Below, one piece after another: positions 3,235 through 23,839 of a stretch of DNA of 24,853 bases. Positions within the stretch are counted from its first letter, which is position 1; each line of letters starts with the position of its first letter. The notes below the pieces were generated by a model, which was not told where the DNA came from, ran no database searches, and was given only the letters and a program-made list of their open reading frames with translations. The DNA comes from a virus, in the IMG/VR virus record IMGVR_UViG_3300031566_000347, positions 1 to 24,853 of that record, one strand, 5' to 3'. Made by a program: the position numbers and the translations under genes.

Positions 3235-3459
3235 ATGCTTACTCGCCTTCGTCGTTGGTGGCGTACCTACCAGAATCTGCGCTGGTTTCGCCGAACCTAT
3301 GGCTGCAATCCTGCAGAACGCCTAGCCTACAGCCGACCCGCACCTACATGCGATCTCTGTGGTCGCCCATACGATGAGTGCAGGTCGGTTGCGCGCTGCT
3401 ATATGGAGCAACTGGCCAAGGCGGAACTCGCTGGACGAGAAGAAATTAGGAGACTCTAA
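3235..3459 (+). CDS. Cys-rich small basic protein, possible zinc-binding
   Basis: A 74-residue protein, not assigned to a named family. The N-terminus is very basic and Trp-rich (LTRLRRWWRTYQNLRWFRRTYG). The middle contains C24, C39, C42, C49 and C55, with TCDLCGRPYDEC resembling a small zinc-binding knuckle; the C-terminus is a charged helix. The start directly follows the previous stop, with AAGGAGG 6 bases upstream, so translation is well supported. It lies immediately before the portal gene. Nucleic-acid or protein binding is a guess from the basic residues and Cys spacing only. Confidence 0.6.
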   Translation: MLTRLRRWWRTYQNLRWFRRTYGCNPAERLAYSRPAPTCDLCGRPYDECRSVARCYMEQLAKAELAGREEIRRL

Positions 3460-3460
3460 C

Positions 3461-4990
3461 ATGGGACTCATCGCCAAGACCCTCCCCGTTCCCTTCGCAG
3501 CCCGTAACGTCGCCCCCATCATGACGCCCTCCTCCTTCACCAGCAGCCTGTCGCCGCTGGCCAGCAATTATCTCGGTCACTCCAGCGCCTACATGCGGAA
3601 CGAGATCGTCTTCGCGGCGATCGAGATGCTGGCGACGTCGGCGGGCGAGCCGCACATCATGGGTATGCGTTGGCAGCGCTCCAGCCCGCAGATACGCGGC
3701 GAGGTCCGCAACCTCTGGGCAGCCGGGGTGCCCTACTACCAGGTGCCAAGCCGCCTCATTCGGAACGGCTTCATCAAGGAGGTGCCCGAGCATCCCCTGG
3801 TTCACCTGCTGAACAATCCCAACCCCTTCATGAGCCGCGGCCAGCTCTGGGGCACAATCGTCATGGACCTGAAACTGGCCGGCAACGCCTACATCCTGAA
3901 AGCGCGCGGGCCGCTCGGGAACACCGCGGAACTCTGGCGGCTCCGGCCCGATAGGGTGCGCATCATACCGTCGGCGACAAACTACATCGAGGGTTACGAG
4001 TACAACGTAGGGCGCGATAAGATCGTCTACCCCGCCGCCGACATCATGCACTTCAAGACGCGGCACCCACTTGATGAGTACTATGGGATGCCGCCGCTGA
4101 TGGTGATTGCGGGACGCGTCGCCATCGACGATTACATGAAGAACTTCCTCAAGACGTTCTTCGAGCGCGGCGGCGCCGGCATGGGCGGCGTGCTGACGGT
4201 CAACAAGGAACTTAACCAGGCCCAGCGGGATGAGATCCGCGGCCTGTTGAAGAGCCGGACGGCCGGGCCCGCCAACTGGCACGAGACACTGGTGCTGGAC
4301 AATACGGACTCGACATACAATCAGATGGGCCTGAACCGCGGCCTGCGCGACGCGCTCCCGAAGGAACTCGACGCCGTCTCGGAGGCGCGGATCGCGATGG
4401 CGTTCGGCATCCCGGGGTCGATACTGGGCCTGCTCATCGGTTACGAGTCCTCGAGTTACGCCAACAAGCGGCAGGACTGGCAGGTCTTCTGGGACCTGAC
4501 CATGACGCCGCTCCTGTCCGACCTCGATGACGTACTGAACCTGTCGATTGTGAAGGATTTCGCCGGCATAGATGAAGTCGCGTTCGACCTGAGCGACATT
4601 CGCGCGCTCCAGGAAGACGTAGACAAGATGCAAAAGCGCGAGCGGGAGAACTTCCTGGCGGGCGGCGCGACCTGGCCTGAATACCGCGAGTACTTGGGGC
4701 GCGACCCGGACGCGGGCGGCTATGTCGTGCTGCCGGCGAACATGCAGATCGTTTCAGTGAAGACGTTGAACGGCGAAGAGCCCTTGCCCCTACCTCCCGC
4801 ACTACCATCGGGCGAGACGGTGGTGGAGGCGTTGCGGGCCACGTTCACGCCGCCGACATTGATGCTACCAGCGGCGCAGAACGTCACCGATGAGGTGCGG
4901 CACGAATGCGGGCGCTTGGTGGCGCGTGATGTGGAGGGGAACCCCGAGTTATTCTGCGGCAAGTGCAATATGAAGTTCAGGCCGCATTAG
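3461..4990 (+). CDS. Portal protein (HK97 type)
   Basis: The 509-residue portal forms the dodecameric ring at one capsid vertex through which DNA enters and leaves. Family-like segments include AYMRNEIVFAAIEMLATSAG near the N-terminus, HPLVHLLNNPNPFMSRGQLW, GNAYILKARG, ELWRLRPDRVRIIP, and the helical region with RDALPKELDAVSEARIAMAFGIP. The start at 3461 has AGGAG 8 bases upstream; a longer in-frame opening from 3359 lies inside the preceding gene and is rejected. The final 30 residues carry H481, C483, C499 and C502 (RHECGR and FCGKC), a possible zinc site appended to the usual fold. A promoter and candidate small RNA gene follow the stop. Confidence 0.92.
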   Translation: MGLIAKTLPVPFAARNVAPIMTPSSFTSSLSPLASNYLGHSSAYMRNEIVFAAIEMLATSAGEPHIMGMRWQRSSPQIRGEVRNLWAAGVPYYQVPSRLIRNGFIKEVPEHPLVHLLNNPNPFMSRGQLWGTIVMDLKLAGNAYILKARGPLGNTAELWRLRPDRVRIIPSATNYIEGYEYNVGRDKIVYPAADIMHFKTRHPLDEYYGMPPLMVIAGRVAIDDYMKNFLKTFFERGGAGMGGVLTVNKELNQAQRDEIRGLLKSRTAGPANWHETLVLDNTDSTYNQMGLNRGLRDALPKELDAVSEARIAMAFGIPGSILGLLIGYESSSYANKRQDWQVFWDLTMTPLLSDLDDVLNLSIVKDFAGIDEVAFDLSDIRALQEDVDKMQKRERENFLAGGATWPEYREYLGRDPDAGGYVVLPANMQIVSVKTLNGEEPLPLPPALPSGETVVEALRATFTPPTLMLPAAQNVTDEVRHECGRLVARDVEGNPELFCGKCNMKFRPH

Positions 4991-4998
4991 GGATGCAC

Positions 4999-5026
4999 TT
5001 GACAGGCCATAGAACAAGCGTATAAT
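4999..5026 (+). promoter_or_regulatory. Near-consensus sigma70 promoter
   Basis: TTGACA (4999-5004) and TATAAT (5021-5026) match both consensus hexamers exactly with a 16-base spacer, in the gap after the portal gene. The predicted start is about 5033. It reads towards the protease and capsid genes, but a terminator at 5092-5115 comes first. Confidence 0.8.
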
Positions 5027-5032
5027 TAACTT

Positions 5033-5115
5033 AGCAATTAGTTCGACGCTCCGCGCAGCCTAGCGCAGCCAGAAGCGTCTCTTAGCGGGCCAAGCGCCCC
5101 TGAGGGCGCTTTTTT
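5033..5115 (+). ncRNA. Candidate small RNA of about 83 nt
   Basis: The stretch between a consensus promoter and a rho-independent terminator holds no ATG-initiated frame, so the transcript is likely non-coding. It can fold: GACGCT (5045-5050) pairs with AGCGTC (5074-5079). Inside is GCGC-AGCCTA-GCGC (5053-5066), and GCGCAGCC occurs twice (5053-5060 and 5063-5070). The 3' end is the terminator hairpin. No known RNA family was recognised. Alternatives are a leader with an attenuator controlling the protease-capsid genes, or a regulated promoter with no separate RNA function. Confidence 0.5.
5092..5115 (+). terminator. Rho-independent terminator
   Basis: AAGCGCCC (5092-5099) pairs perfectly with GGGCGCTT (5104-5111) around a CTGA loop, and the T-run at 5110-5115 follows (then CTTT). 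It lies 22 bases before the protease start, about 85 bases from the promoter at 4999. It would end the short transcript or act as an attenuator before the head genes. Confidence 0.85.
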
Positions 5116-5136
5116 CTTTGCCCGGAGATTGAGCCT

Positions 5137-6084
5137 ATGCCACTACCGAAGCCGAGAAAAGACGAAACCCGAGGTGCGTTCGTCGGTCGCTGCATGAGCG
5201 AGATGGCGGAGGAATACCCAGAGAAGGACCAACGTGCCGCCATTTGTTACAGGCAGTGGCGAGAATCCAAAGGTGAATCTGACATGGGATCCTGGTACGA
5301 AATCCGTGATGCGGTTGGCGATACCGTCGAGGTTCTGCTCTACGACGAGATCGGTTCGTGGGGCATATCGGCGAAGGACTTCGTCGACCAGCTTCAGGCC
5401 GTCAAGGCCAAGACAATCAATGTCCGCGTGAACTCCCCCGGTGGCGATGTCTTCGACGGCGTCGCCATCTACAACGCCCTGAAGAACCACCCTGCCGCCG
5501 TCCATGTGGTCGTTGATGGCGTGGCGCTTTCCAGCGCCTCCTTCATCACCCAGGCTGCCGACACCGTCCTGATGGGGATGGGTTCGACCATGATGATTCA
5601 CGAACCCGCCGGCATGGTCATGGGCGACGCCTCGGACATGGACAAGATGGCCGAGGTGCTGAACAAGATGGGCGACACCATCGCGGCCTTCTATGCCGCC
5701 CGCGCCGGCGGCGACGAACCGCTCTGGCGGGCCCGAATGCGCCTGGAGTCCTGGTATCGGGCGCAGGAGGCCGTCGACATCGGCCTGGCGGATGGCGTAG
5801 TAGGCGGCAAGACCGAGAACCGCGCCGGCATCTTCAACCTGGCACGCTTCAAGAATGTGCCGGAGTGGGTGCCACAGGCCGCCCCTGCCCCCGTTCCAGT
5901 GGAAGTAGAGACAGAACCACCGGAACCGGAACCCTCGCCCATTGCGGAAGCGCTGCGTGAGGGCGTTCGAGAGGTCGTCAGAAATCCAGGAGAAATAGCA
6001 CGCACCGCCGCCTCTTCGCTGTCGGCCCTCCGAGAAGGCGTTGAAGAGGTGGTCAAGCATACCAACGAGGAGAAGACAGGATGA
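5137..6084 (+). CDS. ClpP-type head maturation protease
   Basis: A 315-residue serine protease (S14/ClpP family) expected to process the capsid precursor. Visible motifs are INVRVNSPGGDVFDGVAIYNAL (about 94-115), the nucleophile region DGVALSSASF with S132 the likely catalytic Ser, and MMIHEP with H155. Before it, residues 1-49 form a separate module (KDETRGAFVGRCMSEM and DQRAAICYRQW) of a type seen next to or fused with phage proteases. An internal ATG at 5284 with AAAGGTG upstream could yield the protease domain alone. The acidic, proline-rich C-terminus ends with two similar helices (ALREGVREVVR and ALREGVEEVVK), perhaps a scaffold-like extension. The stop overlaps the capsid start (ATGA). 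Confidence 0.88.
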   Translation: MPLPKPRKDETRGAFVGRCMSEMAEEYPEKDQRAAICYRQWRESKGESDMGSWYEIRDAVGDTVEVLLYDEIGSWGISAKDFVDQLQAVKAKTINVRVNSPGGDVFDGVAIYNALKNHPAAVHVVVDGVALSSASFITQAADTVLMGMGSTMMIHEPAGMVMGDASDMDKMAEVLNKMGDTIAAFYAARAGGDEPLWRARMRLESWYRAQEAVDIGLADGVVGGKTENRAGIFNLARFKNVPEWVPQAAPAPVPVEVETEPPEPEPSPIAEALREGVREVVRNPGEIARTAASSLSALREGVEEVVKHTNEEKTG

Positions 6085-7463
6085 AACTCGTAATACCACA
6101 GAATCCCGAAGAACTACAGGAGATGCTGTCCGATCCGAAGACGATCGAAGATCTCCAGAAAAGCGGCCAGTATGGCGAGGTCCTCAAGGCTTACGGGCGG
6201 GCGCTCGCAAAGTCCGAGGATACCCGCGGCCAGATGGCCGAGATCGTCGCCGAGGCCGTAACGGCCAGCTTCACCGGCCAGGGGGCCGCGAAAGAAGCCA
6301 TCGATAAGGTCGTTACTGACGCCCTGACGGTCAAGTTGGGCGAATACGGCGTCAAGCGCCCGGAGATGGTTGTCGGTGCCGACGCGAAGGCACACGGCGC
6401 CGCCTACAACAAGCACGCTCTCGGCGCCGCCCTCGACAATGAATTCGAGAGCACCGCCGACTTCTTCCACTCGATCTACCATGGCAACCTGGGCGGCCAG
6501 GACCGCTGGCGGAAGATACGCAACGACTATTCCAGCATCGACCCGGCCGCCGGCGGCTTCCTTGTCCCCGAGCGGCTACGCGCCGAATTGCTACGGCTCG
6601 CCCTGGAGACGGCGGTTGTGAGGCCGCGAGCTCGCGTTATCCCGATGGACTCGGCGCGGGTTCCGTTCCCGGCCATCGACTCGACATCTCATGCCTCGAG
6701 CGTCTTCGGTGGCATCACCGGCACCTGGATAGAGGAGAGCGGGACGCTCGGCGAGTCTGAGGCCAAGTTCGGCCGCGTCGTGCTCCAGGCCGCGAAACTC
6801 GCGACGAGCTGCGACGTGCCGAACGAGTTGCTGCAAGACTCCATCGTCTCCTTTGCGGCGCTGATCGAACAGTTGATGCCGGAAGCGATTGCCTGGTACG
6901 AGGACGTCGGCTTCCTGACCGGCAACGGCGTCGGCCAGCCGCTCGGCGTACTGAACAGTCCGGCCCTTGTGACCATCACCAAGGAGACGAACCAGGTCGC
7001 CGACACGATCGTCTGGGAGAACCTGGTCAAGATGTACTCCCAGATGCTGCCGGGTTCCCTCGGACGCGCGGTGTGGGTAGCGAACATCAACTGCTTCCCG
7101 CAGATCGCGACGATGGGCCTATCGGTAGGTACCGGCGGCTCGGCTATCTGGCTGAACAACGGCACGCAGGGTCCGCCGGCGACCATTCTTGGCCGCCCGC
7201 TGATTCTGACCGAGAAGGTCCCGACGGTCGGCGGCGCCGGCAGCGGCAAGGACATCTCCTTCATCGACTTCGGTTACTACCTGATCGGCGACCGGATGCA
7301 GATGCGGGCAGAGTCCTCGCCTCACTACCACTTCGGTACGGACCAGACCACCTACCGCATCATCGAGCGCGTAGATGGCCGCGGCTGGCTGATGAGTTAC
7401 CTGACGCCGGCCAACAGCACCAGTTACCTCAGCCCGTTCGTAACACTGGGCGAGAGGGGCTAA
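6081..7463 (+). CDS. Major capsid protein (HK97 fold)
   Basis: The 460-residue coat protein. Residues 1 to about 125 are helical and charged (EELQEMLSDPKTIEDLQK, RGQMAEIVAEAV), as expected for the scaffolding delta-domain of HK97-type precursors that the upstream protease removes. The mature region includes SIDPAAGGFLVPERLR, ARVIPMDSARVPFPAID, TGTWIEESGTLGESEAKFG, LTGNGVGQPLGVLNSP and ILGRPLILTEKVPTVGG, all typical of the Phage_capsid family. GAGGAG (6067-6072) lies 8 bases before the ATG. Two tandem hairpins follow the stop. The exact cleavage site cannot be read from sequence alone. Confidence 0.95.
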   Translation: MKLVIPQNPEELQEMLSDPKTIEDLQKSGQYGEVLKAYGRALAKSEDTRGQMAEIVAEAVTASFTGQGAAKEAIDKVVTDALTVKLGEYGVKRPEMVVGADAKAHGAAYNKHALGAALDNEFESTADFFHSIYHGNLGGQDRWRKIRNDYSSIDPAAGGFLVPERLRAELLRLALETAVVRPRARVIPMDSARVPFPAIDSTSHASSVFGGITGTWIEESGTLGESEAKFGRVVLQAAKLATSCDVPNELLQDSIVSFAALIEQLMPEAIAWYEDVGFLTGNGVGQPLGVLNSPALVTITKETNQVADTIVWENLVKMYSQMLPGSLGRAVWVANINCFPQIATMGLSVGTGGSAIWLNNGTQGPPATILGRPLILTEKVPTVGGAGSGKDISFIDFGYYLIGDRMQMRAESSPHYHFGTDQTTYRIIERVDGRGWLMSYLTPANSTSYLSPFVTLGERG

Positions 7464-8422: not shown

Positions 8423-8863
8423 ATGAGCATGGCTCTAATCAAGAGCATCTGGGAAAGCGGCGTCCTCCGCTTTCGCAATAGGGGCACCCTGACTCCCATC
8501 GTCACATTCGGGACGCTCCGACTCCACGAGTACCTAGTAGTTACCGACATCGATGCACAAGCCGCCGCACCGACAGCGGCTCAAGTGTTGGGCGGGATCA
8601 TCACCCACAACTCCAAGACCGGCGCGAGTACGCTTACCGTGCCGACGGGCGCACTGCTCGATGCGGCGGTGCCCGGCCTGGCTATAGGCGAGACGATTAA
8701 GTGCTACTACATCAACCGTGGCAACCAAGAGATAACGGTAACGGCCGCAGCGGGCATTACCATCGGTGATGCGGGTCAGACGGTCGCCACCAACGAATCG
8801 GCGCTGCTCGTCTTCCTGAAGACGGCCTCCGAAACCTTCGTTTGCTACCACATAGGAGCGTGA
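8423..8863 (+). CDS. Beta-rich head protein, first of a tandem paralogous pair
   Basis: A 146-residue protein with AGGAGG 6 bases before the ATG. It begins MSMALIKSIWESGVLRFRNR, followed by alternating hydrophobic strands (TPIVTFGTLRLHEYLVV, ETIKCYYINRGNQEITV, ESALLVFLKTASETFV) typical of a compact beta-sandwich. The next gene encodes a paralog with the same layout. There is no catalytic motif. Location after the capsid gene and the all-beta pattern suggest a capsid decoration or head-fibre protein; the family name was not recognised. Confidence 0.7.
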   Translation: MSMALIKSIWESGVLRFRNRGTLTPIVTFGTLRLHEYLVVTDIDAQAAAPTAAQVLGGIITHNSKTGASTLTVPTGALLDAAVPGLAIGETIKCYYINRGNQEITVTAAAGITIGDAGQTVATNESALLVFLKTASETFVCYHIGA

Positions 8864-8907
8864 CACATGGCTTTCAGCTTGATCAAGAGCATCTGGGAAA
8901 GCGGCGT
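8438..8907 (+). repeat. Direct repeat from gene duplication
   Basis: An identical 26-base segment occurs at 8438-8463 and 8882-8907, each inside the N-terminal coding part of the paralogous head genes. Flanking sequence differs mostly at synonymous positions. It marks the better-conserved part of the duplication. Confidence 0.7.
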
Positions 8908-9313
8908 GCTGCGTTTCAGGAACAGGTCTGCGGGCACGCCCATCGTAACCATTGGCACGTTGCGGCTGCATGAGTATCTGGTCGTTACGAATTACGACGA
9001 CCAAGACGCTACATTAGCGGCAGCCGCCCTCGCCGGCGGGATCATCGTCCACACGTCCAACACGGCCGGCGGAACACTAACGTTTGATACGGCGGCAAAC
9101 ATCATTGCCGCGTTTCCCGGTATCGGCGTAGGGGACGCGGTTGAGTGTTACCTGATCAACGACGGCGATCAGACGGACACCCTGGCAGCCGATGGCGGTG
9201 CGACCGTGACGCTTGGGGATGTCGGCCAGGTTCTGGAAATCAACGAGTCCGCGATCCTGTTGATACTCGTGACGGCTACCACGACCGTGACCGTCTACAC
9301 GATAGGAGGCTGA
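8867..9313 (+). CDS. Beta-rich head protein, second of a tandem paralogous pair
   Basis: A 148-residue paralog of the preceding gene product. The first 20 residues are nearly identical (LIKSIWESGVLRFRNR is shared), then GTPIVTIGTLRLHEYLVVT matches closely. The centre has diverged, but the pattern G-D-x-(V/I)-x-C-Y-x-I-N and the final ESAILLILVTATTTVTVY strand are kept. The ATG at 8867 uses AGGAG in the end of the upstream gene. Retention of both copies suggests they occupy different sites or form a hetero-oligomer on the virion. Confidence 0.7.
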   Translation: MAFSLIKSIWESGVLRFRNRSAGTPIVTIGTLRLHEYLVVTNYDDQDATLAAAALAGGIIVHTSNTAGGTLTFDTAANIIAAFPGIGVGDAVECYLINDGDQTDTLAADGGATVTLGDVGQVLEINESAILLILVTATTTVTVYTIGG

Positions 9314-9316
9314 GCC

Positions 9317-10093
9317 ATGACCGTCTACAATCGCGGCCTTGAAGGCAGGCTCAACGATATCCTGGCGATCCTCGGGACGACTACGCCGCAACTCTTTCCC
9401 TTCTGGGAACCGACGGGGCAACTCGTTACGGGCATCGGCGTCGGCGACCTGACGCCCTCAAATGCTGGTGCTGCTGAGGACCTGGAGCACGACTTCGCAC
9501 CGCTGAGATTGCCGTGCGGATTGTATAGTTACCACTTCAATCCCACCGGCGACTGTCACCTTGCCGGTATCGATCATGCGGATTACAGCTTCGCAGGCAC
9601 TGGAGGTATGAGTCTAGGCGCGTGGATTCGGCCCACTACCGTCACCAACAACTGCATCGTCGCTAAATACGACGTGGCGGGGACCGATCGCGAATATCGT
9701 CTCTGGCTCGACGCTGCCAGCAAGCTCGACTTCGAGATGTACGACGACACCGCGAATGCGAGTGAGATAGCCGTCAGCGCCGCTACCGACATCATCAAGG
9801 GAGCCATGCAGTTTGTCTGTGCGACATACGACGGGACGGCCGCCACGCCAAAAGTCTATCTCTACGTCAACGGCGTAGCGGTCAATGACGGTAGTACGGC
9901 GGAGACGGGTGCGTTCGCCGACATGGTCCCGGGCGCAACGCCATTGACTGTTGGCTGTTCGGGTGTCACGGCGGTGCCGACGTTCGAGTTCCACGGTCGT
10001 ATCGCACCGCCCTTTATCACCGGCAAGGAGCTAACGGCGGCTGAGGTCGCGGAACTCTACAAGATCATGGTGCCGATGATAGGGCTGGCGTGA
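9317..10093 (+). CDS. LamG / concanavalin A-like lectin-domain protein
   Basis: A 258-residue protein. Residues about 75-245 match the LamG_3 pattern: YSYHFNPTGDCHLAG, DYSFAGTGGMSLGAWIRP, NCIVAKYDVAGTDREYRLWL, LDFEMYDDTANAS, FVCATYDGTAATPKVYLYVNG and a final FHGRIAPPFITGKELTAAEVAELY. Such jelly-roll domains often bind sugars or other surfaces. The N-terminal 70 residues may attach to the virion. AGGAGG precedes the ATG. The position within the head module, well away from the fibre genes, suggests display on the capsid; a free or tail location cannot be excluded. Confidence 0.78.
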   Translation: MTVYNRGLEGRLNDILAILGTTTPQLFPFWEPTGQLVTGIGVGDLTPSNAGAAEDLEHDFAPLRLPCGLYSYHFNPTGDCHLAGIDHADYSFAGTGGMSLGAWIRPTTVTNNCIVAKYDVAGTDREYRLWLDAASKLDFEMYDDTANASEIAVSAATDIIKGAMQFVCATYDGTAATPKVYLYVNGVAVNDGSTAETGAFADMVPGATPLTVGCSGVTAVPTFEFHGRIAPPFITGKELTAAEVAELYKIMVPMIGLA

Positions 10094-12550: not shown

Positions 12551-12775
12551 ATGGACAAGCGCGATGAACTCATTGCTCAGGGATACGGTGCCGTGGTCAA
12601 GGGCCGTCTGGCCCACCGGACTGACGGCTACTGCTGGACCGACAAGGATCACCTTATACCACTCAAGGACCTGGAAGAAGCGAAAGCGCATGGGTACGAG
12701 ATATGCCGGAAATGCGGCTCGACATCGGCTGCGGAGACAAGCGAGACGAAGGCTACCTCGCGACTGACATCCTAG
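12551..12775 (+). CDS. Ada-type zinc-site-like small protein
   Basis: A 74-residue protein with C28, H34, C52 and C55. The segment LKDLEEAKAHGYEICRKCG resembles the second half of the Ada metal-binding domain pattern (acidic helix, A-x-x-x-G-Y, C-x-x-C), a zinc fold also found in small phage proteins. GAAGGT precedes the ATG. From residue 51 onward the gene overlaps the next gene in another frame; the resulting Ser/Thr-rich tail (AAETSETKATSRLTS) looks incidental, as if the methyltransferase gene had been joined into its 3' end. Function unknown. Confidence 0.5.
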   Translation: MDKRDELIAQGYGAVVKGRLAHRTDGYCWTDKDHLIPLKDLEEAKAHGYEICRKCGSTSAAETSETKATSRLTS

Positions 12776-13149
12776 GTAAGCCCGACGTTCTCTGCGACGC
12801 CCGCTGGCTGCCCTTCAAGGATGGCGCGTTTAGCGGCGCGCGGATGCTGCATGTCCTGGAGCACATCCCGCGCGAGTTCCTGGTACAGACGATGAATGAA
12901 TGCCATCGGGTGACGGCTGAGGGCGGCGAGCTGGAAATCGAGATACCGATCTTCCCGTCGGATGACGCGATGGCGGACCCGACGCACGTCAGCTTCTACG
13001 TCCCGCGAACCTTTGACTATTTCGTTGACGGCTCAGGGCATGACGAGCACCGGCGCATGTACGGCATCGAGCGCTGGGCCTATGTCCTGCGCCAGCGTGG
13101 CGGCATGAACAGCATCATCAACGTGAGGATGGCGAAATGCGCGTCCTAG
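12703..13149 (+). CDS. Class I SAM-dependent methyltransferase
   Basis: A 148-residue methyltransferase of the Methyltransf_11 type. Motif I is LDIGCGDK (residues 6-13, the SAM-binding loop). The strand ATDILG is the likely ribose-binding acidic position, and LPFKDGAFSGARMLHVLEHI (about 37-56) covers the next motifs. PTHVSFYVPRTFDYF is common in nucleotide-sugar or glycan methyltransferases of this group. No target-recognition domain typical of DNA methyltransferases is present, and no DPPY/NPPY motif, so a small-molecule or glycan substrate is favoured. ATG 12703 or 12712 may start it; both overlap the zinc-site gene. Its end overlaps the glycosyltransferase gene by 13 bases. Confidence 0.82.
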   Translation: MPEMRLDIGCGDKRDEGYLATDILGKPDVLCDARWLPFKDGAFSGARMLHVLEHIPREFLVQTMNECHRVTAEGGELEIEIPIFPSDDAMADPTHVSFYVPRTFDYFVDGSGHDEHRRMYGIERWAYVLRQRGGMNSIINVRMAKCAS

Positions 13150-14183
13150 TCGTGGCTTCACCGCACTCCTTCTCGACCCGCGATGTCTACACCGGGCACC
13201 TCGCGGGCCTGCGGGCCTGTCTGGGCGAGAAGAACGTGGTGAGTTATGACCTGCTGCGCCGCTTCAACCTCTACGTCGCATGGGCGCAATGGATGGAAGA
13301 GAAGCACGGCATCGTGCCGCGTGAGTTGAGGCCGAACATCCTCGCCGCCGAGCCGGTCTTCGGCGCCGCCCATTATCACGAGGTCGATGCCATCTACATT
13401 GTCAGTCCGATGTACTTCCCGATGTCTATTGTCGACCTCATCCGCAAAGACGGCTTCAAGGTCTATGCCTACTTCACCGAATGCCCCTACGAAGACGAAC
13501 TCTGGGCCAGGGGTCAGGCTGCCCACTTCGATGCCTGTTTTGTGAACGACCGCAACAGTCTCAGCCGTTTCCAGTCATTCAACGAACACACGGCGTATTT
13601 GGGCCACTCCTACAACCCCGCCGTACATCACCCCGGACGCGGCCCGGCCCCTGGCCACAATCACGTCATCATGGTAGGCACCGGCTTCAAGACGCGCCGG
13701 CGGTTCCTCGAAGAAGCCAACTGGGAAGGGATTGACCTGCGACTTTACGGGGCCATGTGGGCTGGACTTGAGGACGAAGAGGACTGGTCTCTGTCCTCCT
13801 GTGTCCGTCCGCGGCTCATCGACAATCAGACGACGGCGCGCATCTACCGCGGCGCCAGCATCGGGATCTCGATGCACCGCGCCGAGCGGACATACGAGGC
13901 CGAGGACTACATCGACCAGGGCGAAGCCTACTCGGTGGGGCCGCGCACCTACGAACTCGCGGCCTGTGGCCTCTTCCAGCTCTCGGACGAACGCGAGGAA
14001 TTGCATCAGATATTCGATGGGACGGTGCCCGTCTACAACTCGCCGGCCGAACTCGAACGGCTGGTCAGACATTATCTAGACAATCCAGATGAGCGCAAAG
14101 CGCTTGCGGGGCGGCAACTGGAAGCGGTCAAGCCCTATACGGTCGAGCGGCGAATGGCGCAACTTCTGGAATATGTAGCATAG
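13137..14183 (+). CDS. CgeB-like glycosyltransferase (GT-B fold)
   Basis: A 348-residue glycosyltransferase. The N-terminus begins with a Rossmann-like strand (MRVLVVASPHSFSTR). The second domain (about 180-345) matches the Glyco_trans_1_2 pattern: IMVGTGFKTRRRFLE, IYRGASIGISMHR, SVGPRTYELAACGLFQLSDEREE, and the spacer FDGTVPVYNSPAELERLVRHYL with NPDERKALAGRQ. The E in PRTYELAACG is the expected nucleotide-sugar contact. Sugar donor and acceptor cannot be read from sequence. It is coupled to the methyltransferase upstream and directly followed by the tail-tube gene, so the tail tube or another virion protein is a natural acceptor candidate. A host-surface target is possible. Confidence 0.85.
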   Translation: MRVLVVASPHSFSTRDVYTGHLAGLRACLGEKNVVSYDLLRRFNLYVAWAQWMEEKHGIVPRELRPNILAAEPVFGAAHYHEVDAIYIVSPMYFPMSIVDLIRKDGFKVYAYFTECPYEDELWARGQAAHFDACFVNDRNSLSRFQSFNEHTAYLGHSYNPAVHHPGRGPAPGHNHVIMVGTGFKTRRRFLEEANWEGIDLRLYGAMWAGLEDEEDWSLSSCVRPRLIDNQTTARIYRGASIGISMHRAERTYEAEDYIDQGEAYSVGPRTYELAACGLFQLSDEREELHQIFDGTVPVYNSPAELERLVRHYLDNPDERKALAGRQLEAVKPYTVERRMAQLLEYVA

Positions 14184-14601: not shown

Positions 14602-15075
14602 ATGAGGACCGAAGTCAGGCAGTGGGTTGAGCGCATAGTCCGGGAACTGGAACCGCAAGGTCCAGTCCTGGAGGTGGGCGCCCGTAACGTGAACGGGACC
14701 TGCCGCGACCTGTTTCCGGCTGATGGCTATATCGGACTGGACATGCAGGGAGGGGATGGCGTCGACATGGTAGCCGACATTACGGAGTCTGTTCGCAGTC
14801 TTTACGACGGGTTCCGAACCGTCGTCTGTCTGGAGACGCTGGAACACATCACCGATGCCTTCAAGGCGCTGGCGCGGATGTACAACTGCCTTTTGCCCGG
14901 TGGCTTGTTCATCGGCTCGTGGGTCTTCAAGTTCGCGGTTCACTGCGAACCTGATTACTGGCGGGTGACGCCGGCGGGCTTCCGCTATGCCTTAGAGCAG
15001 GCGGGGTTCGTGGACGTAACGATAGAGACGGAGGGCGAGGGCCCGATCGGGGTCTTCGCAACGGCGCGGAAATGA
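14602..15075 (+). CDS. Second class I SAM-dependent methyltransferase
   Basis: A 157-residue methyltransferase. Motif I is VLEVGARNVNG (22-32), followed by YIGLDMQGGDGVDMVADI (motif II and the adenine pocket) and FRTVVCLETLEHITDAFKAL (motif IV region). LPGGLFIGSWVFKF and an ending VDVTIETEGEGPIGVFATARK complete the usual seven-strand order. It is not an obvious duplicate of the first methyltransferase; only motif layout is shared. No DNA-methyltransferase catalytic motif is seen. It lies directly after the tail-tube gene, and its stop overlaps the next ATG (ATGA). Glycan or small-molecule methylation is inferred from its neighbours. Confidence 0.82.
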   Translation: MRTEVRQWVERIVRELEPQGPVLEVGARNVNGTCRDLFPADGYIGLDMQGGDGVDMVADITESVRSLYDGFRTVVCLETLEHITDAFKALARMYNCLLPGGLFIGSWVFKFAVHCEPDYWRVTPAGFRYALEQAGFVDVTIETEGEGPIGVFATARK

Positions 15076-18906: not shown

Positions 18907-21900
18907 ATGACGCTCATGGACCAGGTCTTGTTGACGACGCGCGAACTGCACTATTTCGTTCGCATCAACGGGGTTCTTATCCTGCCCGCCAACCCGACGT
19001 CGCCAACCGGCGTGCCGGGCATCTCCCGGCTCGTCGTGGACAAGATGAACCCCGTCCCCGTATGCAGCATCGACGTCAACCGCATACCGACGTGGATAAA
19101 GCGGGGCCAGGTCGTCACGGTTGACCTCGGCTATGACGGATTCTATCAGCGCGTCTTCACCGGCACGGTGCAGGATCGCAGCCGCGGCGTAGGCGCCGGC
19201 ACGATCAACTGCATGGGCGAGTCCTTCAAGATCGAACGCGGCATCGAGATACCGGAGCGCAACGTGGATGGGGCTACGGTTGACGCTACGATTGAGGCCA
19301 TCCTTGATTACGTCGGCGTCGACCACTACAGCGTCGTCGCGCCGGCCTTCACGCTCGGCGCGGCATCGAACCCCGTACTCGACCGCATGACAGCTTCGGC
19401 GCAACTCGAATTGCTAATGGGCATCGACGGCTGCATGAGGATGGAGGACCGCAACGGGCGCATCATCATCCGCCAGGTCGAAGGCTTGCCATCCTCGACC
19501 GCCTTCATGTCCTATGGCACGACAACCGCGCTGGGCATCACTGCCGGCGAGACGCGCGAAGATCCGCAGTACTTCCGGAACCGCGTCATCGTGACGGGGG
19601 CGGTCGTGACTGAGGGCGCGGCACCCGACGAGACATCGCGCACCATCACTGCCACCGCAACCGTCACGGACTCGCCGCTGGCGCAGCCGCCCTTGCCTTC
19701 GGGCACCTTCATCGACGCCGAAGTCAGCAATCATCTCCTCGACACCGATGCGAAGGCGGCAGAGGTCGCGGGACGGCTGGCGACAGCCTACGCCCGCGTG
19801 CCTCAGTACACGCCCGTCACGGTGCCAATGAACCCCCTACTGGAAGTCTGGCAGACGCTGGAGTTCGTCATCCCCGACCTGGACCTGGATGGGCGCTTTT
19901 GGGTTGCTGGACTGCGCCACACCATCGACAAGCGCGGCGCCAAGACAGAACTCATGCTGCGCGGCGGTGACGAACTCGGCGGGACGGTCAACATCAACCC
20001 GATCGCGGCCTTCACCTTCACGGTCGAGCGCGAGGTCATGGGCGCGGGCGTCTGGGTCGTCGTCAGCTTCGACGGCTCGGCCAGCTTCGACCCCGACGGG
20101 ACGACCATCACCTACGCCTGGAGCGACAACCAGACATCAACGCCGGAGATCGCCACCATCACGACGCCCACGGGCACCGTGCGGGCGCTGGCATCCTCTC
20201 TGTCGACCTCCTGGGACATTACCCTTACCGTCACCGATGCGGACGGACTGACGGGCACCCTGACGCTCTCCGTGCCCTACGGCGCGGAAGAGACGGGCGT
20301 GAGCATCATGCCGGTCTTCGCTGCGCTGAATAACAACGCTTCTGCTACCCCGGACGGCGGGCAGACGTGGAACGACCAGGCGAGCGCGACGTGCGTCAGC
20401 GTGGCGGCAAAGCCCGTTGATGCGGTGCAGTCGGGGATCGCCGTCTTCGGCTACGACGACGGGTCTATCAGGCGAACCGCAGACTTCTGCGCGACCGCGC
20501 CAGCCGCAGTCAAGGCGGCAGCGCCGGCGGATGGCGTCATTACCTGCATCGCCTGGGATATCAACTGGCCGATCTTCGTCTGGGCAGCCACGTCAACGGG
20601 GCGGCTCTATCTGTCACAGGATGACGGGCTGACCTTCGGACTCTATCACGACTTCGGCAATACCTACGCCATCAACAACATCGGCACGCCCTACGGCGGC
20701 GGCGTCTGGGTCTTCGGCGGAAGGGGCGATTATCCCGGCACGCTCATCCAGCGCGACGTCGCCCTGAACAACAACTGGTCGAGCCCCACCATCGGCGGCG
20801 AACTGCTGGCCGACCTCGCGGCATCGACGTCGGCCCTCACGATCGCCTGGGCTGCCTCCTTCTGGACCGGCACGGCCATCATCTTCAAGGGTGAGCAGGC
20901 GGGCGGCGGCGTCAACCTGTTCTACGTCGACGACATCAACGGCGACGGCACGGGCTGGAAGCGCGGCACGGGGCTAGACGCCGATCTGGTCGATGGCCGC
21001 TACGTCATCGGCGACAGGCAGTACGGCGTCTATCACGCTGCCTTCGGAGACCGCAACACCTGGCATACCGCAGATGGCGTCGCGTGGACCAAGACGGCGG
21101 AGGCCATGCCCGCCGGGGTGACGCCAAACCATGCGATCTGGCTCGGCGCGTGGCTGGAGGGGAGTGAGCAGGTGCATCTCGTCGCGGGCGAGGACGCGGA
21201 CGATGCGAGCGAGGGCATCTACAAGAGCACAGACGGGCTCGTGACGATCCTCGCCATGCGTCCGGCGACGGGCTTCCCCGCGTGGCCGGCGGATGCGCTG
21301 GGCAAGCAGGTGGCGGTCGGGGCGCCGAATTTCGGTACGAATGAGGGCCACGTCCTCATCGCTGGGAGCATGACGGGCGGCAGGTTTGCAGCATGGCGAA
21401 CAGGCGTTGGCAGTTGGAGTAGTTATACCTTCGCTGACGAGTTCGCCGGGGCAACCTGTATGCTCCCGCGTCCCCTGACATCGACTCATTGGCTGATCAT
21501 GGGCTTCCACGGCAGCTACGATTACAACGATGCCGTCAACAACAAGATTCAGTGGACGCACGACGCCGGCGAGAACTGGGGGGCATTCACACAGCCAAAG
21601 GCCGGTAACGATTACTGGCAGGATTTCGCCGTGGATGCAGGGGGCCGATGGTGGGGATTGACGCTTGATATCACGGGCAACGACCACGGCACGGCGAAAA
21701 TCTGGTACTCCGACGATGAGGGAGATTCTTGGACTCTCGCGGATACTCTGACGGATGAGGACCCGAACTACCTGCGAATGTTTCGCATCGTCTGCCACCC
21801 CTTCAATCAGAACATCATCGCGGCAATCGGCCTAGGCGGTACGCTTTCGCGGACGCCGGTGGTTCATTATACGCTTGATCGTGGCACCTCGTTCGGCACC

Positions 21901-22476
21901 AATACCCTCGGGGCAACCCTGGCCTACAATACCTATGCCTACTCGACCGATGTACTGATGACCTCAAGCGGACGGCTCGTTTGGGGCGGCCTCTATCTCA
22001 CTGGCACCGCAACAGTGGGGATTGCAGTCTCGGATGATTACGGCCAGAACTGGACGAAGGTCAAGGATTTCGGGGCGGTTGCCAATCAATGGTGCTGGGG
22101 GCCGTCCGGCACAAAGCATGGCACTATCCTTTATGCGCTTCACTATGACGGTAGCAACGGGCTGGACCTCGTAACGGAGGCATGGAGGTCGGGGGATAGC
22201 GGCGCGACATGGACGGAGTTTACGAATGAGGTTACGCAGCAGGCTGCCACCTATTTCGGCAAGGGCGGTCTGGCCTATGACCAGACAGACGACGCGCTCT
22301 ATGTGCTGAATGAAACGGTAGGCTTGACCACGAACAACTGGCTCGTCGACAAGGCGAGTCCGGCCACGACTGATGCAACCTGGATAGACTTCTCTGACAC
22401 CCTCTTGCCCATTGGCGCAGATACGCATTTTCACGTCGCGGCCGTCGGTATACAGATTCGGGTAATACCCAGATGA
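18907..22476 (+). CDS. Tail-tip hub fused to a PKD domain and Asp-box beta-propeller
   Basis: A 1189-residue modular protein. Residues 1 to about 360 are beta-rich with features of a baseplate hub (VVTVDLGYDGFYQRVFTGTV, ATIEAILDYVGVDHYSV, ATAYARVPQYTPVTVPM, FWVAGLRHTIDK). Residues about 362-456 form a PKD domain (VSFDGSASFDPDGT, ITYAWSDNQ, WDITLTVTDADG). The rest resembles a BNR/sortilin-type propeller with Asp boxes (S/T-x-D-x-G-x-T-W/F): TPDGGQTW at 481, SQDDGLTF at 570, THDAGENW at 884, SDDEGDSW at 935, TLDRGTSF at 989, SDDYGQNW at 1042 and SGDSGATW at 1095. The last five are about 53 residues apart. The clustered Arg residues of true sialidases were not identified, so binding is more likely than catalysis. 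Confidence 0.82.
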   Translation: MTLMDQVLLTTRELHYFVRINGVLILPANPTSPTGVPGISRLVVDKMNPVPVCSIDVNRIPTWIKRGQVVTVDLGYDGFYQRVFTGTVQDRSRGVGAGTINCMGESFKIERGIEIPERNVDGATVDATIEAILDYVGVDHYSVVAPAFTLGAASNPVLDRMTASAQLELLMGIDGCMRMEDRNGRIIIRQVEGLPSSTAFMSYGTTTALGITAGETREDPQYFRNRVIVTGAVVTEGAAPDETSRTITATATVTDSPLAQPPLPSGTFIDAEVSNHLLDTDAKAAEVAGRLATAYARVPQYTPVTVPMNPLLEVWQTLEFVIPDLDLDGRFWVAGLRHTIDKRGAKTELMLRGGDELGGTVNINPIAAFTFTVEREVMGAGVWVVVSFDGSASFDPDGTTITYAWSDNQTSTPEIATITTPTGTVRALASSLSTSWDITLTVTDADGLTGTLTLSVPYGAEETGVSIMPVFAALNNNASATPDGGQTWNDQASATCVSVAAKPVDAVQSGIAVFGYDDGSIRRTADFCATAPAAVKAAAPADGVITCIAWDINWPIFVWAATSTGRLYLSQDDGLTFGLYHDFGNTYAINNIGTPYGGGVWVFGGRGDYPGTLIQRDVALNNNWSSPTIGGELLADLAASTSALTIAWAASFWTGTAIIFKGEQAGGGVNLFYVDDINGDGTGWKRGTGLDADLVDGRYVIGDRQYGVYHAAFGDRNTWHTADGVAWTKTAEAMPAGVTPNHAIWLGAWLEGSEQVHLVAGEDADDASEGIYKSTDGLVTILAMRPATGFPAWPADALGKQVAVGAPNFGTNEGHVLIAGSMTGGRFAAWRTGVGSWSSYTFADEFAGATCMLPRPLTSTHWLIMGFHGSYDYNDAVNNKIQWTHDAGENWGAFTQPKAGNDYWQDFAVDAGGRWWGLTLDITGNDHGTAKIWYSDDEGDSWTLADTLTDEDPNYLRMFRIVCHPFNQNIIAAIGLGGTLSRTPVVHYTLDRGTSFGTNTLGATLAYNTYAYSTDVLMTSSGRLVWGGLYLTGTATVGIAVSDDYGQNWTKVKDFGAVANQWCWGPSGTKHGTILYALHYDGSNGLDLVTEAWRSGDSGATWTEFTNEVTQQAATYFGKGGLAYDQTDDALYVLNETVGLTTNNWLVDKASPATTDATWIDFSDTLLPIGADTHFHVAAVGIQIRVIPR

Positions 22477-22805
22477 GCGACGAAGACATCTTCCAGTTAG
22501 CCAGGCGCCTGGAGGCTGAGGTCGCAAGCCTGAAGGCGATGGTCGGTCCGCTGCTGCGCGGCGGTCTCTCGGCGGCGCTCCTGAAAGGCGTCTTGCCGAT
22601 TCACATTCACGGCGGCACTGGTGGCGGTGGCGGGACGTTGGCACCCACGACGCTGAAACTGCCCGCGACGGCGACTGACCCCGATTACATCGACGGCTAC
22701 GCCATCATCTACTTCTACTCGACAGGCGGCGTCGATGAACTCCGCGTGCGCGGCAAGATCGGCGCTACGGAGACGCAGGTGACGCTCGGAGAGCTGAGTC
22801 CATGA
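22473..22805 (+). CDS. Small tail-tip or fibre-associated protein
   Basis: A 110-residue protein coupled by ATGA to the hub fusion. The N-terminal helix (DEDIFQLARRLEAEVASLKAMV) could form a short coiled coil. A His/Gly-rich linker (HIHGGTGGGGG) follows, then a strand-rich C-terminus (GYAIIYFYSTGGVDELRVRG) resembling short domains found in phage fibres. It ends by overlapping the collagen-like gene. It may be a connector between the tail tip and the fibre; no family was recognised. Confidence 0.6.
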   Translation: MSDEDIFQLARRLEAEVASLKAMVGPLLRGGLSAALLKGVLPIHIHGGTGGGGGTLAPTTLKLPATATDPDYIDGYAIIYFYSTGGVDELRVRGKIGATETQVTLGELSP

Positions 22806-23839
22806 CGCAGAGTACGGAACCGCTCTATGCCATCTCCTTCTTCGACGGCGAGGACGCCTTCTCGCTGTGGGCGATGGGCGAACTGACGCATCTCTATTCG
22901 CACAAAGATCGCACCGTCAAGGTCGCCGCCGCTACGCAACTCTTGGCCGAACTCGGGCCAGCTGGGCTTCAGCTTTTCGCTTCATTGCGGCTGCCAGGCG
23001 TCCATATCGGCCCGAGTTTCATTGAACTGGACGGCTTGCGCCTCCACGTTCGCCACGAAAACGGCGTCCCCATGCTCTACGCGGGGGAACAGGCGGTTAG
23101 CGCCGGCCTCCGCGGACTCCGCGGGCGGCCGGGCAAGGATGGGCGCGATGGCGTTGATGGCAAAGACGGCCGTTCTATTCAGGGGGCGCCAGGCGATACC
23201 GTTATCGGTCCCAAGGGAGATAAGGGCGACAAGGGCGATACCGTCGTCGGGCCCCCTGGGCCTGCTGGCGATACCGTTATCGGGCCCAAAGGAGACAAAG
23301 GAGATAAGGGCGACAAGGGCGATACCATTGTTGGGCCTCCTGGGCCTCCAGGCGAAACCATTATTGGCCCGAAGGGCGACAAGGGCGACAAGGGCGATCC
23401 AGGAGAAAGCATCGAAGGCCCGCCAGGAAGGGATGGCCGCGACGGAATCGACGGTGAAACAATCCGCGGCCCTCGGGGATTGCGCGGCCAAAAGGGTGAG
23501 AAAGGCGATACCGTCGTCGGGCCAACGGGCGATAAAGGCGAGGAGGGCGATACCGTCGTTGGGCCCAAAGGCGAAAGGGGCGATAAGGGCGAGAGGGGCG
23601 ATGCGGTCGTCGGCCCCAAAGGCGAGAAGGGCGACCGTGGGCCAGCAGGGAAGGATGTCGGCGGCGGCGTCATGCTCGGCGGCGGCGTAGGCCCGCCCGG
23701 CCCGGAGGGACCCCCAGGACCACCTGGTACGCCAAGCGAGGGCCTTACGGTCGTCGGCACCCTACCGGCGACAGGCGACGACGGAGATGCAGTGTACCTG
23801 ACGACCGATCATCACGCGTATCTCTACACAGACGGATAA
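22802..23839 (+). CDS. Collagen-like tail fibre protein
   Basis: A 345-residue fibre. Residues 1-101 form a globular head (YAISFFDGEDAFSLW, LYSHKDRTVKVAAATQ, LGPAGLQLFASLRL). Residues 102-284 are Gly-X-Y collagen repeats rich in GDKGDK, predicted to form a charged triple helix. A second short run occurs at 297-311 (GPPGPEGPPGPPG). The repeat is broken eleven times by a six-residue G-x-x-x-x-G insert such as GDTVVG, GETIIG or GESIEG. The C-terminal cap (GTLPATGDDGDAVYLTTDHH) resembles short domains ending many phage fibres. The start overlaps the preceding stop (ATGA). Confidence 0.88.
   Translation: MTQSTEPLYAISFFDGEDAFSLWAMGELTHLYSHKDRTVKVAAATQLLAELGPAGLQLFASLRLPGVHIGPSFIELDGLRLHVRHENGVPMLYAGEQAVSAGLRGLRGRPGKDGRDGVDGKDGRSIQGAPGDTVIGPKGDKGDKGDTVVGPPGPAGDTVIGPKGDKGDKGDKGDTIVGPPGPPGETIIGPKGDKGDKGDPGESIEGPPGRDGRDGIDGETIRGPRGLRGQKGEKGDTVVGPTGDKGEEGDTVVGPKGERGDKGERGDAVVGPKGEKGDRGPAGKDVGGGVMLGGGVGPPGPEGPPGPPGTPSEGLTVVGTLPATGDDGDAVYLTTDHHAYLYTDG
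23105..23734 (+). repeat. Collagen Gly-X-Y coding repeat with regular interruptions
   Basis: Nested 9-base units coding GDKGDK and longer units containing the interruption occur through 23105-23653, with a final GPP-type run to 23734. Interruption starts at residues 123, 131, 145, 156, 173, 184, 201, 218, 235, 249 and 266. Spacings are 8, 14, 11, 17, 11, 17, 17, 17, 14 and 17, always 5 plus a multiple of 3. The region is prone to slippage or recombination. Confidence 0.85.

Follow-up and report, generated by a model that had tools for sequence, protein, structure and literature searches.

The stretch at 4999-5115, between the portal gene and the head maturation protease gene of a virus recorded in IMG/VR, is best read as an attenuated late promoter of the head operon that acts in cis and whose leader, in most relatives, opens with a proposed NusA-loading site of a host type; we put the probability of this reading at roughly 0.6. 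Its most likely role is to switch capsid production on and off. It has the basic lay-out of a cis-acting attenuator leader, namely a promoter, an untranslated leader and an intrinsic terminator before a gene on the same strand. Because of this order, head proteins can be made only if polymerase, whether it started here or upstream, gets past the terminator. What is new here is the place, before the head protease, together with a 5′ tag that is common to bacterial leaders. The label "host-type" for this tag is deduced from where the tag is common.

The window, i.e., the whole stretch of DNA analysed, is a partial IMG/VR virus record of 24,853 bases. It contains a head-tail module with genes for terminase, portal, ClpP-like head maturation protease, major capsid protein and tape measure, and a long operon lies downstream of the leader (Table 1). 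Nucleotide relatives of the window were not found among named phages. A portal profile search of GTDB contigs and 400 Chloroflexota genomes gave no prophage or host match, and the host may still be there. Several other genes of the window are worth recording. The portal C-terminus has a zinc-ribbon-like Cys cluster, of which C517, C533 and C536 are invariant in 16 relatives. Tandem paralogues with 57% identity (8423-8863 and 8867-9313), the first of which lacks a Pfam match, lie 3′ of the capsid gene and are followed by a gene with a Laminin_G_3 lectin-like domain (9317-10093). Two methyltransferase-like genes and one glycosyltransferase-like gene are found between the head-tail connector and the tail genes (12703-14183 and 14602-15075). 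The tail region encodes a protein of 1189 aa with PKD-like and Sortilin/Vps10-like stretches (18907-22476), and the tail module ends with a collagen-like Gly-X-Y repeat protein (22802-23839; Pfam Collagen, E 1e-12).

Table 1. Features of the cassette and its neighbouring genes in the window.
Feature	Position	Strand	Basis
Portal protein, upstream gene	3359-4990	+	PHROG portal, E 2e-51; Pfam Phage_portal
Sigma-70-type promoter, TTGACA-16-TATAAT	4999-5026	+	Exact hexamers; kept in 28/35 relatives' portal-protease intervals
Predicted transcript start (about 5033) and 5′ element AGCAATTAGTTC	5033-5044	+	Relatives' alignment; start deduced from promoter, 7 nt after −10
5′ hairpin, arms GACGCT 5045-5050 / AGCGTC 5074-5079, inner stem GCGC 5053-5056 / GCGC 5063-5066	5045-5079	+	
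Long bipartite intrinsic terminator, arms 5071-5090 / 5096-5113, U tract 5110-5115	5071-5115	+	
Likely Shine-Dalgarno GGAG of protease gene	5124-5127	+	Sequence
ClpP-like head maturation protease, gene behind cassette	5137-6084	+	PHROG, E 4e-77; Pfam CLP_protease
Major capsid protein, after protease	6081-7463		PHROG major head protein, E 3e-43

The promoter had been noticed earlier as a pair of exact hexamers with a 16-base spacer, and this holds. TTGACA lies at 4999-5004 and TATAAT at 5021-5026, and the window has a single copy of the exact pattern, which is absent from all of 100 dinucleotide shuffles; it is also the sole 12/12 promoter site in the 20 kb scanned. For comparison, relatives were collected by portal searches of viral sequences (portals 45-100% identical), and 35 non-redundant loci in which portal and protease were both readable made up the counted set. 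A promoter matching at least 9/12 positions is found within the portal-protease interval in 28 of these 35 relatives (at least 10/12 in 22), with TTGACA as the −35 element in almost every one of these; the remaining seven have no promoter of at least 9/12 in this interval. The intervals total 19.9 kb, whereas the remainder of the loci, 500 kb counting both strands, has 48 promoters of at least 9/12. The terminator stands just before the ribosome-binding site of the protease gene in nearly all relatives, within about 80-150 nt of leader. In three relatives (L026, L027 and L028) it is retained and the promoter is missing, and some relatives have a small ORF between portal and cassette. The order of promoter, structured RNA, terminator and protease is kept while the leader cores diverge. 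Type A leaders, including that of the window, have GACGCt..AGCGTC followed by GCGGGCCaAGCGCCCC; type B leaders adopt a three-way-junction-like fold (L004, L005, L007 and L013); those of the remaining relatives have one or two small hairpins. A search of viral contigs for TTGACA..TATAAT..GCGCAGCC gave 43 matches, mostly unrelated promoters, of which only those linked to a portal gene were counted. The comparisons support a promoter-RNA-terminator cassette at 4999-5115 that is real and conserved in relatives.

The predicted transcript start of most relatives reads ACAACTGAATAG or a close variant. Allowing up to three mismatches, the 12-mer ACAACUGAAUAG or a near match begins the RNA in 19 of the 28 relatives with an interval promoter, and it follows none of the 48 other promoters of the same loci. 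The window's own 5′ end, GCAAUUAG (also written AGCAAUUAGUUC), is shortened and diverged, with 6/12 mismatches to the 12-mer; the window and the type A relatives have the shortened forms GCAATTAG, ACAATAG and ACAAATTAG. The divergence of the window's tag is the weakest link: the argument from the tag rests on the relatives, and with these mismatches the case for NusA loading is weakest for the window's phage itself. That the phage 5′ end is a boxA was ruled out, as its CTT precedes the predicted start. Other viral contigs have comparable arrangements. In L250, L264, L269 and L277, a promoter and ACAACTGAATAG precede a conserved structured leader (AGAGGTTG.TTGGCGGCC...) before a gene; this leader is not evidently homologous to that of the window. 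Near-identical leaders (ACAACTGAATAGYAAGGACCGGCCCCC...), another structured RNA, follow a promoter in L252, L254, L258, L263 and L272.

The same tag is found in bacteria. In bacterial genome contigs, promoter plus tag gave at least 118 matches against about five expected, as estimated from the pattern length, and among the matches listed Chloroflexota and Clostridia predominate. When the first 40 of these loci were scanned with Rfam, an aptamer (SAM, FMN, TPP, cobalamin or T-box) was found directly 3′ of the tag in 29 (13/20 and 16/20). In Chloroflexota genomes drawn without selection, of which the 90 nt before each aptamer were scanned, the tag with up to two mismatches precedes SAM aptamers in 13 of 24 cases, T-boxes in 2 of 24, TPP aptamers in 1 of 28 and RNase P in 0 of 29, against 0.1-0.4% in shuffles (0.4% for the SAM leaders). 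With three mismatches allowed, 5 of 24 T-box leaders have it. The enrichment is therefore strong for SAM, modest for T-box and weak for TPP leaders. TPP leaders were dropped as a clean negative control, since many have terminators and their aptamer begins close enough to the promoter to overlap the tag position. In SAM leaders the tag accompanies a terminator: by a crude terminator finder, both are present in 13, the tag only in 3, the terminator only in 4 and neither in 6. Exact copies of the 12-mer number only one or two per genome, so that the tag is a degenerate consensus and not an abundant repeat. CTTAACAACTGGATAG and TTTGACAACTGAAGAG (...CTTAACAACTGRATAG) occur in the rRNA leaders of Chloroflexota, shortly 5′ of 16S, and no conserved boxA precedes the tag in riboswitch and T-box leaders. 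In two Chloroflexota genomes, a structured stretch after the tag, GGCGAAATGGCAGCCGCGG...GGGGAACCCT...CCCCGAGCCAAGC, is common to L133 (1080-1300) and L175; it reads like a group I intron core, and the Rfam scan of L133 gave no match to it at the gathering threshold.

In the 2005 structure of Beuth, the KH domains of Mycobacterium tuberculosis NusA reportedly hold GAACUCAAUAG, boxC of the rRNA leader. The relatives' ACAACTGAATAG appears to be close to this oligo, the window's copy being shortened, and a consensus A[C/G]AACU[G/C]AAUAG would cover both the tag and the oligo. The tag thus appears to resemble the NusA-binding boxC of mycobacterial rRNA. The S1-KH1-KH2 part of M. tuberculosis NusA binds boxC-like RNA (PMC6614801), and a Chloroflexota NusA is homologous to the crystallised M. 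tuberculosis fragment (2asb/2atw). NusA is known to stimulate intrinsic termination, to favour pausing in leaders and to make riboswitches respond better (PMC12288461), and it promotes pausing and termination at riboswitch leaders (PMC12288461, PMC11087558). Neither a published description of the 12-mer tag nor one of a NusA-loading sequence at the 5′ end of riboswitch leaders was found in the open-access papers searched. A broader proposal, to which we would give appreciably less than even odds, is that Chloroflexota, Clostridia and others use ACAACUGAAUAG as a new, general tag for NusA loading, placed at the extreme 5′ end of attenuated leaders (riboswitches and T-boxes) and akin to the NusA site of rRNA leaders, and that a large group of uncultivated phages has put this tag before a switch of their own that gates the head genes.

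The 83-nt RNA has a folding energy of −34.3 kcal/mol (z −2.3). The earlier note had seen no ATG-initiated frame downstream of the promoter, and indeed no plus-strand ORF of at least 20 aa has its start within the leader; attenuation by a leader peptide or small ORF was ruled out for this reason. An Rfam scan of the window gave no match at the gathering threshold, and the best sub-threshold match, Atu_C8 (18.8 bits against a cut-off of 50), was discarded as a chance match. The note's foldable core is borne out in that GACGCT/AGCGTC and the doubled GCGCAGCC are present, the doublet being kept in the closest relatives only, but the GACGCT/AGCGTC stem is absent from the minimum-energy fold, because AGCGTC is taken by the longer terminator stem 5071-5090/5096-5113. 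Pairing in the 5′ hairpin is kept in 98% of cells against 32-53% in slid controls. The compensatory changes suggested as a check of this stem were found at two pairs, changed on both sides, in a small set of 10 sequences, several of them near-identical; these pairs lend modest support to the predicted hairpin. A further contig tried for covariation, L371, was discarded as unrelated GC-rich DNA.

The strong rho-independent terminator predicted before the protease gene was also recovered. A short inner terminator (5092-5111), with eight pairs, six of them G-C, and the T tract at 5110-5115, is the best among 17 terminator-like matches; the weak ones of these are barely above chance in number (17 against 12.8 ± 3.4), and 5092-5111 is far stronger than these. 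The lower 5′ arm of the long terminator overlaps AGCGTC of the 5′ hairpin, so that the two stems are alternatives, and in silico the 5′ hairpin and the long terminator are mutually exclusive. When folding of the growing transcript was modelled, the 5′ hairpin formed first and stood to about nt 74, and the terminator then took its 3′ arm. The short terminator and the 5′ hairpin are compatible, in a fold of −29.2 kcal/mol as compared with −34.3 kcal/mol for the best one. Since the two can coexist, stabilisation of the hairpin alone may not allow read-through.

In the mechanism that we infer, RNA polymerase would initiate near 5033 and make a leader of about 80 nt. The 5′ hairpin would form first, the terminator stem would then invade it, and polymerase would halt before the protease gene. 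If termination is suppressed, the head genes would be made; suppression might be brought about by a factor, or by stabilisation of the 5′ hairpin, which would deprive the terminator of its lower arm. ACAACUGAAUAG, at the start of most relatives' leaders, would load host NusA on the nascent RNA and so render folding and termination decisive.

Known systems offer partial parallels. In lambda, the Q-dependent late promoter pR′ is followed by a short leader, the 6S RNA, and immediately by the intrinsic terminator tR′, and antitermination opens the gate to the late genes. The window likewise has a constitutive-looking promoter, a short leader and a promoter-proximal terminator with late genes behind it. 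However, its cassette lies inside the head module before the protease, whereas that of lambda lies before the lysis genes, and the relatives have a tag of bacterial leaders at the start of theirs. The riboswitch and T-box attenuators found in Chloroflexota and Clostridia share with the relatives a promoter, a start at ACAACTGAATAG, a structured RNA and a terminator. Unlike these, the window has no aptamer known to Rfam, has head genes behind the leader and has a shortened tag. Judged from sequence, the cassette may work like lambda pR′-6S-tR′ and riboswitch attenuators. As for boxA/boxC of rRNA leaders, ACAACTGRATAG in Chloroflexota rRNA leaders appears to resemble GAACUCAAUAG, but the phage and riboswitch leaders have no clear transcribed boxA and have a terminator after the tag.

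The main reading of the earlier note was a candidate 83-nt small RNA. The cassette it described is real, but that it makes a stand-alone RNA acting in trans, with a promoter and terminator of its own that happen to lie between portal and protease, is unlikely. The RNA is short and strongly folded, has its own promoter and terminator and lacks an ORF, and among nine larger records there is at most one exact-tag cassette per record, a weak test of the exact pattern only. Termination would in any case leave a short RNA, and a second role in trans may exist beside attenuation. A conserved core or seed independent of the neighbouring gene was not seen; instead one relative after another has the cassette 5′ of the protease, with a core that turns over. 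As the core is not constant, it is unlike the usual active part of a trans-acting RNA. Moreover, the best conserved transcribed part in the relatives is the 5′ tag common to cis leaders, and the RNA has no Rfam match.

About equally doubtful is that the leader is a nut/put-like antitermination site, which would load Nus factors of the host, perhaps together with a phage protein, and make polymerase terminator-resistant for the head-tail operon. Its 5′-terminal position and its hairpins resemble the lay-out of HK022 put and lambda nut, involvement of host Nus factors is plausible, the tag occurs within Chloroflexota rRNA leaders, where antitermination sites lie, and the operon downstream is long. 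However, the two-hairpin consensus of put was not recognised in the leader. Further, put and nut suppress distant terminators, whereas the terminator here follows within about 80-150 nt and is retained in nearly all relatives, and the main chromosomal sites of the tag are attenuated leaders (riboswitches and T-boxes) with no conserved boxA before it. Lower still we would place an unregulated arrangement, in which a constitutive accessory promoter and a leaky terminator tune the ratio of portal, protease and capsid. Simple level control fits the three relatives that have the terminator and no promoter, but the conserved 5′ tag and the compensated 5′ hairpin would be needless for a mere leak. 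Among the three roles that the earlier note had offered, an attenuator gating capsid expression is thus best supported, because the cassette keeps its place directly 5′ of the protease despite a changing RNA core and because the tag of most relatives is also found on bacterial cis-acting attenuator leaders; a moron-like RNA and a regulator of host RNA received no positive evidence.

With the cassette read as an attenuator of the head operon, the tag bears on how NusA is directed to riboswitch leaders, a question that it makes testable with one RNA and one protein. Common to rRNA leaders, metabolite riboswitches, T-boxes and a phage capsid operon, it would also give a sequence handle for unknown attenuators in bacteria and phages.
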